Below are positions 1,906-53,483 of a DNA stretch of 58,142 nucleotides, in pieces. The notes below the pieces were generated by a model. It had not been told where the DNA came from. It searched no databases and saw only the letters and a program-made list of their open reading frames with translations. The stretch's first letter is position 1; each line of letters starts with the position of its first letter. Both the position numbers and the translations under genes were made by a program. Source of the DNA: Pseudobdellovibrionaceae bacterium (lineage in GTDB: Bacteria > Bdellovibrionota > Bdellovibrionia > Bdellovibrionales > Bdellovibrionaceae); assembly GCA_016785955.1 (NCBI GenBank), contig JAEUWH010000092.1, positions 1 through 58,142 on the forward strand, read 5' to 3'.

Positions 1906-2895
1906 ATGGCCCAACATCAAAAAAAAATCAGTAGAATTGGCTTATATACAAGTGGTGGAGATGCTCCTGGAATGAACGCCGCTATCCGCGCTGTTGTGCG
2001 GGTTGCGCACTCTCTCAATATTGAAGTCATGGGAATTTATCAAGGCTACATTGGTCTGATTGAAAACATCGTCAAGCCCCTCCACATCCGAGACGTGGCA
2101 AATATTATCCAAAGAGGCGGCACCATATTGAAGACAGGCCGTAGCAGTGATTTTCATAAAGCCGAAATTCGCGCAAAAGCTGTGGATACATTGAAAGCTC
2201 ACAATATTGATGGACTGATATGCATTGGCGGCGACGGTTCTTTCCGTGGTGCATACTCTTTGTGGAAAGAACACCAAATTCCCATCGTGGGAATTCCGGG
2301 AACGATTGATAACGATATTTTTGGTTCCGACCTGACGATTGGTTTTGATACGGCCGTGAATACGGCACTGGACGCTATCGACAAGATTCGTGATACCGCC
2401 GACAGCCATGATCGCGTGTTTATCGTCGAAGTTATGGGACGCAATTCAGGATTCATCGCCTGCCATGTCGGCCTCGCTGGCGGTGCCGAGGAAATTTTTG
2501 TACCTGATGGCAGCACCCATATCGAAAAATCTATTGAACGCATCAAAGATTCGATCAAGAAAGGCAAGCACAGCAGTATATTAATCACTGCCGAAGGACA
2601 AAAACCAGGACGTGCTTACGATTTGGCCGATGCGATTCGAAAAAAATCAGGCATCGATCCCAAAATTTGCATCTTGGGACATATTCAACGAGGTGGATCT
2701 CCGACGTCGGTCGACCGCGTGTTGGCTTCACGTATGGGCTCCGCAGCCATTGATAATCTGCACAAAGGTTTTTGCGATATCATGATCGGCTCTGATGGTC
2801 CTAACCTTGTTCAAGTGCCTTTCGAACTTGCAACAACGAAAGAAAAACGCAGCCCCATAGAGTACGTTCAACTGAGTCAAATTTTAGCTGTTTAA
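1906..2895 (+). CDS. pfkA: ATP-dependent 6-phosphofructokinase
   Basis: Phosphorylates fructose 6-phosphate to fructose 1,6-bisphosphate in glycolysis. The 329 residues match the short bacterial PfkA. Visible motifs: GGDAPGMNAAIR near residue 18 (nucleotide-binding loop), GGDGSFRGA near 108, PGTIDNDI near 130 with the catalytic Asp, and MGRNSGF near 178. GGDGS and GTIDND are the ATP-type forms; the pyrophosphate enzymes have GGDD and KTIDND. AGGAAT precedes the ATG. It lies alone between the HU terminator and a convergent pseudogene. Confidence 0.95.
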   Translation: MAQHQKKISRIGLYTSGGDAPGMNAAIRAVVRVAHSLNIEVMGIYQGYIGLIENIVKPLHIRDVANIIQRGGTILKTGRSSDFHKAEIRAKAVDTLKAHNIDGLICIGGDGSFRGAYSLWKEHQIPIVGIPGTIDNDIFGSDLTIGFDTAVNTALDAIDKIRDTADSHDRVFIVEVMGRNSGFIACHVGLAGGAEEIFVPDGSTHIEKSIERIKDSIKKGKHSSILITAEGQKPGRAYDLADAIRKKSGIDPKICILGHIQRGGSPTSVDRVLASRMGSAAIDNLHKGFCDIMIGSDGPNLVQVPFELATTKEKRSPIEYVQLSQILAV

Positions 2896-2961
2896 AAAAA
2901 TTGCCCATCAATTTTTCATGGTCGTAAAATAAGACAATTTGTCTGGCAAATCACTATTGAT

Positions 2962-3018
2962 ATCATCATCCTCATCATCATCAAGACTGAAAACTTGAAT
3001 GAGCACACACACACACAC
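2962..3018. repeat. Simple repeats after pfkA
   Basis: An ATC/ATCC-rich tract (about 2962-2984) and a (CA)7 C run (3004-3018) lie in the intergenic stretch after pfkA. They are not coding. Their length could vary between strains. Confidence 0.7.
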
Positions 3019-3057
3019 TATTAACACGACAATGTGTCTCCATTTTTACCGCGGGGC

Positions 3058-3092
3058 CTAGCGCGAGCGGATCGATCGAACCGCTGCGCTAG
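3058..3092. repeat. GC-rich inverted repeat at convergent gene ends
   Basis: CTAGCGCGAGCGG (3058-3070) and CCGCTGCGCTAG (3081-3092) form a 12-bp stem with one bulged G and a 10-nt loop. There is no T run, so it is only a possible terminator for the convergent genes on either side. Confidence 0.5.
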
Positions 3093-3105
3093 TAGACTGG
3101 ACTCG

Positions 3106-4752
3106 CTAGCGAAAGCGCCGCAGAATGTGATTAGCCGCCTCCAGCGCGGTGGACTCGGAACTTTCGTATGCGGGGGACACCAAGTTATCTTGATTGGCAA
3201 AGACTATGTTCCCGATAGGTTGACTGGCCAACGCAAGCTCTTTCGATGACGCCAATCCTGCCTGACATACGGGTACCGAGTGCCCCCAGAGGGTCATGCG
3301 AACGGCACCGATATCCGAGTTCGTGATGCCCAATTCAGGATAATAATTTTGCAATTCCGTGAGCAAGAAATCTCGATGCTTGTTGTGCGCAAACGGACTT
3401 AACAAGAACTGCCGTGCTCCTTGGTAGGGAAATGCCTTGTAAAACGTCAATGTGCAGGGAGAGCCTTTATCACCCTGAGCCCAATTTGAAAAGATCACGT
3501 CCGTAAACCCACGACTGAATGTCGCATTCGGTGTCGGAATTTTAGGAATTTCTTTTTTCAAACAATACAAATCAAAACCTTTAGAGGGAATTGTCTTTCG
3601 TAATGTCACATTACCGACCATGAACGAGCGGTATTCAATACTGTCCATTACCCTCAATTGATTAGCCGGAATCGGCGAGATAATTTTTTTTGCCACAAAT
3701 TTGGGTGCCGCCATGACGACGAATTTCGTGCGAATGGTTTTTAGTTTGTATAAACTTTCTTCCACAACGACGTCCACGAAACCATTTCCGGGAATCACTT
3801 TCAATACGGCACTCTTTGTTCTCAACTGGGCCGGTCCCACCGCCGCCCGCAGATTTTGAAATAACAATTGTGTGATCAGACTGTTTCCACCCGGAAAAAC
3901 TAAAATTCCATTTTGTTCCGAGGCTTGCCAAGACAAAAACTCGCCCGCCGCAATTTCATCCAGCGTGCCACCAAAAGACGACCAAGCATAGTACTGGAAG
4001 TATTCGTACAATGTCGTAGTGATGTGCGGAAAATATTGTCGTAACCATTGGTTCACAGACATATGATTGAACGCGGCGGGATTATCTTTGTACTTTTTCA
4101 AAACTTGTTTCATTTGCGCAAACACGGTTGGACTTTCATGCGCACCCGACCAGAAATTCGGCAGCACTTTGCCATTTAGAAATACTTCTTTCTGCGCCGC
4201 CGTTTCGACGCGTCCATATTTCAAAACACCGATTTCATTCAACATGCGGTGAGAAGGCGAATTGGTTTCGGGAATAGAAATGTAAGCCGGACCTAACGAA
4301 TATAAATTCGTGCCGATCGATTCACCTTTACAGTTGCCACCGAACTGACTGGCTTGCTCTAAAATCAGCGGCTGCAATCGTTTTAATTAATAACCCGCAA
4401 TCAATCCACTGAGTCCGCCGCCGACGACCACAACGTTTTGCGATTCACTTGCTGACGGAATTCCACCTGATTTTTGAATATAGCCATCCACATTCCAAAA
4501 TCGATCATGATTAGGATCGGGCTCATCACCCGTAAATTCAGCCGTAGAGGAAAAGCCGGCTAATTTAGAAATTGGATCTTGAGGTGCGCGACGAGTATAT
4601 TGGGCATCCGCAAAGGGTGCAATACCCAAGGTACCCATGAATGCCGTTCCAAATGTCGTTCCCAATGTTTTTGCAAGAGGTGATCCCACCACGGACGCGA
4701 CAGACGTAGCTAAAATCTTGTGAAAATCCCGACGATCTAACATGTATTTCAT
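3106..4752 (-). pseudogene. Tat-exported FAD-dependent amine oxidase-like gene broken by an in-frame TAA
   Basis: Read from 4752 down, the first 121 codons give a twin-arginine signal (RRDFHK near residue 7, then a hydrophobic stretch) and the start of a Rossmann FAD site, VVVVGGGLSGLIAGY. A TAA follows at 4389-4387. In the same frame, with no shift, come Leu-Lys-Arg-Leu and then QPLILEQASQFGGNCKG, the rest of the FAD beta-alpha-beta unit with its ribose-binding Glu. The frame stays open for 423 more codons to TAG at 3108. So one stop splits a protein of about 548 residues inside its cofactor site. The rest is intact, so the change is recent, is a sequencing error, or is read through. An internal TTG start at 4377 would give a protein without the GxGxxG loop. 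Confidence 0.85.
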
Positions 4753-4893: not shown

Positions 4894-5388
4894 ATGAAGG
4901 TCTTGATAACGCTGGTCTTTTTGTATACTAGCCTATCCCTAGCCGCCTCTCGTGTGGGTGAATGGGCGGCTTATGACTATGAAGAGTCAACACCGACCTC
5001 GTCGCTCAAAGGTATCTTAATCAAAGAAGTCTTAGCCGTTAAACGTATGAAGTCCGCATCCGGTAAACTAGAGAATCATCTGCAAGTGAGTTCAAAATTA
5101 CTTTCTTCTGGAGCCGCAACCAAAGAAGTCATCAAATGGGAGCCCGAGACTCAATACCACAATGCGCTTGATCTGAATCTATATGTTCTGAAATGCCGCT
5201 TTATTGCGAAAATCGGTAAGATCGAAAAAATTAAAGTCAAAGGTGGTTCATTCAATGCCTGTCATGTGAAAGATCAAGACACGTGGGTGGGCGTGGTACC
5301 TTTCAATTTTATTTTGCATATCCGCAACGAACCGCAATTATTTCAACGGTACGAGCTGATCAACTACTCTTGGAAAAAGAAAAAATAG
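4894..5388 (+). CDS. Secreted hypothetical protein
   Basis: I do not recognise this 164-residue protein. It starts with a signal peptide (MKVLITLVFLYTSLSLAAS, cleavage probably after SLAA) and carries two Cys (near residues 100 and 123) that could form a disulfide. The mature part is basic and beta-rich, ending in KKKK. CAGGGAG lies before the ATG. The gene is divergent from the broken oxidase gene and is followed by a terminator-like hairpin. It probably acts in the periplasm. Confidence 0.7.
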   Translation: MKVLITLVFLYTSLSLAASRVGEWAAYDYEESTPTSSLKGILIKEVLAVKRMKSASGKLENHLQVSSKLLSSGAATKEVIKWEPETQYHNALDLNLYVLKCRFIAKIGKIEKIKVKGGSFNACHVKDQDTWVGVVPFNFILHIRNEPQLFQRYELINYSWKKKK

Positions 5389-24664: not shown

Positions 24665-24869
24665 TTTTGCCTTACGTTTCTCCAACAAGATAAGGCCATC
24701 GTTTCATATCAAGACGTTTCACTTTAAGACATAATACCCGAAAGTTGCCTAGCCCGTTTACAAAATTCGGCGACAAGCTTTGGCTTCTCAGAATGAAACG
24801 CTTGGAGGGCGTTAAAACTGATCTTTCCGGCACAGCTATTGAATCTTATGTTTTTCAAGAGGATAAAAC

Positions 24870-25565
24870 ATGAAAACATTAATCTTGATAGCGCCCCTAT
24901 TACTTATCATCTGTTTCCAAAATTTTAATTTTGTAAATCTGCTGGATAAAAAATATTTTGTAGATGAAAAAAGTCGTGTTAATCACGCACGCGAAATACT
25001 TGGGAAAAACTATAAAAAAAGCGACATCTCCAAGTTAGAAGGCGAAAAGTTTTTTCATATCTATTTATATAATCTAGTAAACAAAGGACTTCCAGAAAAA
25101 CACAAAAGGCATTCTAATCGTCTTGTAAAAACCATCATCGCCGAGGCCACCGCTCACTCGATCGATCCTGTATTTATCGCTTCCATTATTCAAACGGAAA
25201 GCTCGTTTAACCCTGAAGCACGCGGCTTGGCCGGCGAGGTGGGTCTAATGCAAATCATGCCCTCAACCGCAAAAGAAATTGCCGAACGTTTGAAAATTCG
25301 TTGGCGCGGACCAAAGACTTTATTAGATCCGGTTAACAATGTCCGCATTGGCACCGCTTATGTGAGTCAGCTCCGAGACTTCTTTGGCAATCAACCCGCT
25401 CGTTATATTTCGGCCTACAATGTTGGCCCTGGTAAAATTTTAAAAATTGAAAACAAGAAAAAAGATTTACCCAAGTTCTATTCAACTAAGGTTTTAAAAT
25501 ATTACGAAGAATTTTATAAAAAAGTTGTCTCTAGCCAGTTATTGAACAACCTAGCGGCTAATTAA
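24870..25565 (+). CDS. Lytic transglycosylase (SLT domain)
   Basis: Cleaves peptidoglycan glycan strands to 1,6-anhydro ends in the periplasm. An N-terminal hydrophobic signal or anchor (MKTLILIAPLLLIICF) has no lipobox. The SLT domain spans about 88-215: IIQTESSFNPEA carries the catalytic Glu, followed by GEVGLMQIMPSTA and, later, ISAYNVGPGKI. This is the goose-lysozyme-like family 1 pattern. AAGAGG precedes the ATG. It lies between two terminators, so it is a single-gene unit. In a predator it could act on its own or prey wall; that is inference. Confidence 0.92.
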   Translation: MKTLILIAPLLLIICFQNFNFVNLLDKKYFVDEKSRVNHAREILGKNYKKSDISKLEGEKFFHIYLYNLVNKGLPEKHKRHSNRLVKTIIAEATAHSIDPVFIASIIQTESSFNPEARGLAGEVGLMQIMPSTAKEIAERLKIRWRGPKTLLDPVNNVRIGTAYVSQLRDFFGNQPARYISAYNVGPGKILKIENKKKDLPKFYSTKVLKYYEEFYKKVVSSQLLNNLAAN

Positions 25566-32380: not shown

Positions 32381-32491
32381 ATAGGCCCTAATAATTCCTG
32401 AGGCTCTTGAAAAGTTATCGATGTGGTTCATTTCAGACATCGCAACAGCTGACCACACGATGAAAACCTAAACTTTTTTTGTAAATGTTGG

Positions 32492-32995
32492 TTATTTTAA
32501 CAGCTTGGGATCATCGATTTTGCGAAATTCGGCGTCGATGACATCACCACTTTGCTCGGTCGTGGTATTTTGATTTTGAAATGGACCGCGGCTTTGACTG
32601 CCTTGATAGTAAAAACGAAAGTTTCCGCTTCCAAATTGATGAACAAAGCTATTCGCGTTAAATACTCGTTTCAATAGAAAATTTGTAAACCCAACCGCGA
32701 CCAACCATCTTACCGGTGGAAAAAACAAAACGGCTCCGCAGATCTTAGTACCCATCGAGGGCACAATTAACAATAAACCCGATACGAACAGGAGACCACG
32801 AGATATCATAGATCGATTCGATGCCGATACCGTACCCGTTTGAAATTCACGTAATGACTTGAAGCCAACGGCGCGAACAATGATGATACCGATGAACATT
32901 GTGACCGCATAGAGCAAAAGAAAATTCAAAAATCCAAAGAACTGAACAAAGTAATAAACCAAAATTATTTCCGCAAACAGAATCAGTATGGGCAT
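32492..32995 (-). CDS. fxsA: FxsA-family membrane protein
   Basis: A 167-residue inner-membrane protein of the FxsA/UPF0716 family. It has three to four hydrophobic helices in the first 110 residues. GLLFVSGLLLIVPSMGTKICGAVLFFPPVRWL (about 68-98) is the conserved core of the family, usually written as LLIPGF-x-TD-x-x-G-x-LLL-P. The tail is polar and rich in Gln and Asn. E. coli FxsA relieves F-plasmid exclusion of phage T7; the native role is unknown. AGGAGG precedes the ATG. Confidence 0.85.
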   Translation of the reverse strand: MPILILFAEIILVYYFVQFFGFLNFLLLYAVTMFIGIIIVRAVGFKSLREFQTGTVSASNRSMISRGLLFVSGLLLIVPSMGTKICGAVLFFPPVRWLVAVGFTNFLLKRVFNANSFVHQFGSGNFRFYYQGSQSRGPFQNQNTTTEQSGDVIDAEFRKIDDPKLLK

Positions 32996-52000: not shown

Positions 52001-52100
52001 CCGGTTTGGCTTTGCGTAGAGCGCCATACAATTTAAGCCGTTAGCAAGATTAATTTTACAAATCCTTAGTTTTCGATAGAATCACGGCACTGGAGTCAAG

Positions 52101-53483
52101 ATGACGATGAATAATTCAAAAGTATTTGTAAACCGCACCCTCAATCTGAAAAAAATTAAATTTATTGGCCTGGATATGGATCATACGCTTGTACGCTACA
52201 ATATCGAGGCTTTTGAACGACTTTCGTATTCAAAAATTATCGAAAAACTTATCAAGCGCCGAAACTATCCTCAAACTCTAAAAAATTTGGTATTTGACTA
52301 TAATTTTGCAATTCGTGGATTGGTTATCGATCGCCAAAAAGGCAACTTATTAAAACTCAATCGCTACACAGCGATCCGCGCGTCTTATCATGGTCAAAAA
52401 TCAATTGATTTTAAGACACACCAAAAATTGTACCGCAGCACTTATATTGATCTCAGCAATCCTGCGTATATGACCGTCGATACATTTTTTTCTATTTCTT
52501 TGGCTGTGTTGTTTTCTCAGTTAGTGGATTTAAAGGATACTGACAAGGGCAATACCTATCCCGAATACTCGCAAATGGCAGATGATGTACTGGCTTCGCT
52601 GGACGAATCGCATCGAGATGGTTCTTTAAAGGATGAAGTTAAGAAAAATCTAGATAAATATATTATCAAAGATTCCTTCATGGTTGAACGCCTAGAAACC
52701 TTCAAAAAACATGGAAAGAAAATTTTCGTACTGACAAATTCTGATTTTACGTACACGAAATTATTGATGGACTACGCGATTAATCCATTCTTGAAAGAGC
52801 ACAAAAGTTGGATCGATCTTTTCGAAATAGTGATTACGTTTGCTCACAAGCCTAAATTTTTCTATGAGCGCCAGCAGTTCCTGAAAGTAAATCCAATGGA
52901 TGGAACAATGACCAATATGGACGAACCCCTAAAACATGGTATCTACCAAGGGGGTAATGCCATGAAATTTACCGATGATTTTAATCTGGAAGGCGATGAA
53001 ATTCTTTACATCGGCGATCATATTTATGGCGATATTCTGCGCTTGAAAAAAGACTGCAACTGGCGAACGGCAATGGTACTGGAAGAACTTCAATTCGAAC
53101 TAGAGAACAACACCAAGGCCGAACCCACGGTGGTTGAAATTGAAAAACTAATGGCGCTCAAAGAGCCAATGGAAGATAAACTGACCTTACTGATGACGGA
53201 AAAAACTGAAAATCCAAATTTGGACGACAAAGAGATTGAATCCTTACAAGATCAAATTTCTGGAATCGATGCGCAGATATCTCAACTTATTAAAAAACAG
53301 CAATCTCTTTACAATCCTCAATGGGGCCAGTTGATGCGCGCCGGGAATGAAGAGAGCTATCTTGCATATCAAGTGGAACGCTATGCGTGCGTTTATATGT
53401 CTCAGTTGTCGGACTTACTGGCACTCTCTCCGCGCACGTACTTTCGTGCTCCACGCCGTCCCCTGTCCCACGAGAAAGTATAG
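52101..53483 (+). CDS. HAD-IG family 5'-nucleotidase
   Basis: A 460-residue haloacid dehalogenase-type phosphatase related to cytosolic IMP/GMP 5'-nucleotidase. GLDMDHTLVRYN near residue 24 is motif I (DxDxT), KIFVLTNSDFTYT near 210 motif II, and EILYIGDHIYGDILRLKK near 300 motif IV. The C-terminal third is helical. It should dephosphorylate purine nucleotides in the cytoplasm, which could matter in nucleotide salvage from prey. GGAG precedes the ATG. Confidence 0.9.
   Translation: MTMNNSKVFVNRTLNLKKIKFIGLDMDHTLVRYNIEAFERLSYSKIIEKLIKRRNYPQTLKNLVFDYNFAIRGLVIDRQKGNLLKLNRYTAIRASYHGQKSIDFKTHQKLYRSTYIDLSNPAYMTVDTFFSISLAVLFSQLVDLKDTDKGNTYPEYSQMADDVLASLDESHRDGSLKDEVKKNLDKYIIKDSFMVERLETFKKHGKKIFVLTNSDFTYTKLLMDYAINPFLKEHKSWIDLFEIVITFAHKPKFFYERQQFLKVNPMDGTMTNMDEPLKHGIYQGGNAMKFTDDFNLEGDEILYIGDHIYGDILRLKKDCNWRTAMVLEELQFELENNTKAEPTVVEIEKLMALKEPMEDKLTLLMTEKTENPNLDDKEIESLQDQISGIDAQISQLIKKQQSLYNPQWGQLMRAGNEESYLAYQVERYACVYMSQLSDLLALSPRTYFRAPRRPLSHEKV

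Follow-up and report, generated by a model that had tools for sequence, protein, structure and literature searches.

Does a stop codon within an otherwise well-kept bacterial oxidase gene mark a gene that has just been lost, a wrong letter in a draft consensus or a stop that the cell is able to live with? This question is raised by the minus-strand frame 4752..3106 of the window (the whole stretch of 58,142 nucleotides of DNA analysed here), in which the only internal stop is codon 122 of 549, the natural stop being codon 549 (3106-3108). The features on which the argument turns are the following:

1906..2895, plus strand: 6-phosphofructokinase-like gene, a syntenic flank that places the locus in congeners
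3106..4752, minus strand: interrupted gene for what looks like an FAD-dependent, amine-oxidase-like enzyme, with PF01593 in the post-stop part and an N-terminal RRDFHK twin-arginine stretch
3106..4377, minus strand: open frame from the first post-stop TTG, 423 amino acids, lacking GGGLSG and the signal stretch
4387..4389, minus strand: in-frame TAA, codon 122, directly 3' of the GGGLSG stretch
4387..4752, minus strand: open frame up to and including the stop, 121 amino acids, with the twin-arginine stretch and GGGLSG; alone, it has no Pfam or NCBIfam match
4894..5388, plus strand: second syntenic flank, a gene for a small protein that looks exported

An earlier note on this DNA had reported a single in-frame TAA without frameshift within 4375-4400, and our alignment bears this out: the TAA lies at 4389-4387, the residues around it read GGGLSGLIAGY, stop, LKRLQPLILEQ, and there is no gap, insertion or deletion at the stop column in the protein alignment with homologues. 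The TAA is preceded by 121 sense codons and followed by 426; the 423 open codons given in the note are right when counted from the TTG at 4377-4375, and become 426 when counted from the stop itself. Uninterrupted orthologues can be aligned with the frame over its full length, on both sides of the TAA, and the oxidase is the only one of the 49 window genes with a counterpart in the related genome G005 to carry a stop inside its conserved frame. Judged from these comparisons, the TAA-interrupted oxidase frame is therefore more than chance. The 49 genes are what remained of 58 initial rows once nine overlapping ones (antisense or paralogous) had been dropped, and two of those kept are weak (29% and 45% identity). 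Three other rows flagged for stops were rejected: in 24756-25538 and 52038-53480 the stops come before the true start, and in 32489-32995 the natural end is concerned.

As to the nature of the gene, the post-stop part matches PF01593, the flavin-containing amine oxidoreductases, with 25.9 bits and from profile position 17 onwards, and two intact orthologues do so with 41.2 and 39.9 bits, all above the gathering cut-off (19.8 bits). The intact orthologues also match the N-terminal Rossmann family PF13450 above its gathering score (residues 106-170) and, because the stop column corresponds to their residue 119, the TAA splits the FAD-binding unit, in agreement with the note, which had put the stop within the FAD-binding beta-alpha-beta unit. 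Hence, the intact orthologues resemble PF01593 oxidoreductases with a PF13450 Rossmann unit in matching both families, whereas the window copy is broken inside the PF13450 stretch. Its product looks like an FAD-dependent, amine-oxidase-like enzyme. The best named NCBIfam relative is PigB (NF053556; PMC7065143), a flavin-dependent dihydropyrrole oxidase of prodigiosin synthesis, with whose C-terminal part the last ~260 residues align. The best-scoring stretch, however, spans only profile positions 401-657 of 659, and we rejected PigB equivalog identity as mainly the C-terminal part is matched and the scores (71.4 and 115.9 bits, the latter for an intact orthologue) are far under the cut-off of 850. 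Solved structures found by sequence search comprise seven distinct sequences: one is unrelated, and the other six are flavoenzymes for which the match covers the Rossmann stretch. A plasmid search gave five records with partial matches below 30% identity. The predicted structure of an intact orthologue, based on a three-row alignment, is poor (mean pLDDT 33.7), and no conclusion is based on it. By eye, the window frame has a twin-arginine (RR) close to its N terminus, as does each of the 13 homologues aligned. Twin-arginine motifs act as export signals, and the enzyme is probably exported by the twin-arginine route; the description 'exported' in the note stands to this extent, as a reading of the motif.

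The intact state of the gene can be seen in relatives. Among 39 genomes searched with the post-stop part, including that of the window (G000), 14 have a match, and two Bdellovibrionaceae MAGs, G004 (UBA2351) and G005 (UBA2316), carry uninterrupted orthologues of 545 amino acids (73-78% identical) that are flanked, as in the window, by the phosphofructokinase gene on one side and the small exported-looking gene on the other. The site is empty between the flanking genes in G002, which has a 562-amino-acid homologue on a different contig, and in G003 the oxidase gene is absent between the two flanks. In G001 the site still holds a remnant (L027 9546-9730): three pieces, spread over two reading frames by a frame change, correspond to residues 10-19 (weak alone, E 0.066), 255-283 and 516-544 of an intact copy, and two large internal deletions have removed most of the gene. 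In a survey of the family at E <= 1e-20, the gene is matched in 29 of 66 genomes and not in the other 37. Since G001 holds a remnant only, G002 and G003 lack the gene at the site and 37 of the 66 family genomes are without a match, the oxidase looks dispensable. A four-gene protein tree places G000, with support 98, outside (G001,(G004,G005)) as against G002 and G003, and because G001 thus groups with G004 and G005 apart from G000, the G000 stop and the G001 deletions would most simply be two separate inactivations. Of the 30 copies counted in the family survey, the window copy is the sole one reported with an internal stop. Another of these copies, from a different genus of the family (G052, L096 337-1882), falls into two parts in different reading frames, that is, a frameshift or an assembly error.

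The neighbourhood of the gene shows some features of its own. Only ~210 bases (2896-3105) lie between the phosphofructokinase and oxidase genes in the window, and the same interval holds two extra genes in G005 (166 and 299 amino acids), one in G001 (314 amino acids) and a partly different set in G004, which makes it a variable segment. Just past the natural stop of the oxidase gene there is a CA dinucleotide run (3004-3018) and a GC-rich imperfect palindrome (3058-3092, CTAGCGC...GCGCTAG). The palindrome was not listed by a terminator scan, and the idea of a repeated element at the gene end was dropped, the sole match to the hairpin in the genome being itself. The genes around the sodium/glutamate symporter next door are matched in the syntenic 10-kb stretches of G002 (L060) and G003 (L059), but the symporter itself is not.

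Could the part downstream of the TAA be a gene with a start of its own? None of the 13 aligned homologues has a stop in the column of the TAA; their sense residues there are of five different types, so the position is variable and the stop itself not conserved. The note had named, as the case that would speak against an interrupted gene, homologues whose natural start is the downstream TTG; none was found, and all 13 carry the upstream GGGxxG stretch. A related view is that translation restarts at the TTG nine bases past the stop and that two fragments are made and assemble. Although a 423-amino-acid open frame does begin with that TTG at 4377, we see by eye no purine-rich ribosome-binding stretch just before it, none of the 13 homologues starts there and the second fragment would come without signal stretch and GGGxxG, which to our minds makes this scenario extremely improbable.

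Alternatively, the TAA might be decoded. Terminators among the 49 genes are TAA (20), TAG (20) and TGA (9), and no UUA anticodon (for a tRNA reading UAA) was called among the 33 Rfam tRNA matches of the genome, one of which (C82) gave no ARAGORN call. With TAA ending 20 of the 49 genes and no such anticodon called, we rejected TAA reassignment or a suppressor tRNA; and with one of 49 matched genes affected, we likewise rejected a general error problem or pseudogene load, in a window that represents only ~1.3% of a draft genome of 124 contigs. Taken together, these three observations (one gene affected in 49, 20 of 49 ending in TAA, no UUA anticodon called) are the reason why neither TAA reassignment nor poor assembly is indicated. 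Readthrough of the TAA had also been offered in the note; whether programmed or tolerated, it would give some full-length enzyme. It would fit purifying selection that is not relaxed, and Belinky et al. (2021, PMC7918605) read constrained in-frame stops (dN/dS <1) as frequent readthrough. However, the stop is found in none of the 13 aligned homologues and in none of the 29 other family-survey copies, which argues against its conservation, the anticodon search offers no decoding tRNA, UAA is, in the summary given by PMC4989110, the bacterial stop that leaks least (from about 9e-4 down to below 1e-5), and most stops of this kind are, according to PMC7918605, short-lived and on the scale of polymorphism. 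Readthrough thus finds no positive support for a TAA that is an ordinary terminator here, and we hold it to be highly unlikely.

How long the gene may have been without function can be bounded from its sequence constraint. In a comparison with 11 other sequences, from which the two most remote homologues (L013 and L014) were left out, 47 columns are invariant among these 11, and the window copy deviates at none of them. A codon model for G000, G004 and G005 gives an omega of 0.03 on the G000 branch as against 0.044 elsewhere (2dlnL 1.98, not significant); synonymous divergence is saturated on this branch, so omega there is rough and the time bound rests on nonsynonymous change. A four-taxon fit gave an even lower G000 omega (2dlnL 4.73) with two branch lengths at bound, and we do not count it as evidence. 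Because of the saturation we fitted a neutral segment at the G000 tip, whose likelihood is maximal at 0 and falls at 0.02 (2dlnL -3.56) and 0.03 (-5.6) neutral substitutions per site. This puts the neutral time since inactivation at an estimated 0, with an upper bound of ~0.02 neutral substitutions per site. Every 0.01 neutral substitutions per site should bring ~0.8 stops, so a single stop agrees with a very young event. Run on four neighbouring genes that are intact, the profile peaks at 0 or 0.01, and for this reason the test cannot tell the oxidase apart from functional genes. The claim in the note that the gene has not decayed is upheld by both the neutral-segment maximum and the invariant columns.

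Strong constraint without relaxation is, however, also expected from a sequencing error or from a gene still expressed through the stop, and a wrong base in the draft consensus could not be told from a mutation here. A substitution error, with the gene of the organism intact, is the main rival; the draft state of the genome with its 124 contigs, the unrelaxed G000 branch and the singleness of such a stop among the 49 genes would all agree with it. Against this, the window shows no excess of broken genes and hence no general error problem, and the loss or breakage of the gene elsewhere in the genus makes real loss plausible. A lone consensus error that creates a stop is also rare a priori. On balance we regard an error as rather unlikely, yet deserving of more weight than any other rival. 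Of the explanations in the note, a very recent nonsense mutation and a sequencing error both stay live, the former being favoured.

Two further scenarios see the stop as part of a changing population. One, the phase-like on/off state suggested in the note, would make it reversible, and nothing beyond a single stop in an otherwise intact gene speaks for it; by eye there is no simple repeat, long homopolymer or slippage tract or indel at the stop, and the single genome copy leaves no silent cassette of the oxidase gene for exchange. We therefore give phase variation hardly any credence. The other sees in the TAA an allele, tolerated at the level of the population, by which a periplasmic oxidase of a predator-family bacterium is switched off or kept at low expression; selection would repeatedly remove or return it, or slight readthrough would leave a trace of enzyme. 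We think this very unlikely; if true, it would explain why the frame is unrelaxed despite a genus that inactivates or loses the gene at this site elsewhere.

The reading we prefer, and consider probable, is that a dispensable gene has very recently suffered a genuine nonsense mutation, be it fixed by now or still segregating. The comparison involves one genome per species, and from a single genome a fixed stop and one allele of a population look alike. An ancestral intact gene would have encoded the FAD-dependent, amine-oxidase-like enzyme, probably exported via the twin-arginine route, and a base substitution, without an indel, would have put TAA in place of a sense codon at a position that varies, just past the dinucleotide-binding glycines. 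Translation would now end after 121 residues and leave an N-terminal stub, while no active enzyme is to be expected from the remaining 426 codons because they lack the signal and the FAD-binding glycines. With codon 122 of 549 the stop comes early enough to remove essential parts, GGGxxG lying before it and the PF01593 match after it. The rest of the frame may still look selected because too little time has passed since the stop for decay, within the upper bound given above. Several marks of a recent nonsense pseudogene are found here: a conserved frame that is truncated, intact orthologues in relatives and little or no decay besides the stop.

According to Belinky et al. (2021, PMC7918605), in-frame stops in conserved bacterial genes are common and mostly short-lived, with dN/dS staying below 1, and our analysis would assign the oxidase to this class. 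Like those stops it is one in-frame stop in a frame that is otherwise conserved and shows no visible relaxation; in contrast to the main set of that study, which consists of stops common to two or more species, the oxidase stop occurs in one genome only. Thus the TAA is most likely an ordinary event and does not point to a new mechanism. For annotation, this calls for a single entry flagged as interrupted and no division into two genes. The locus may also offer a clean example of a gene at, or just after, its inactivation, and a related lineage has a decayed remnant of the gene in the corresponding position.
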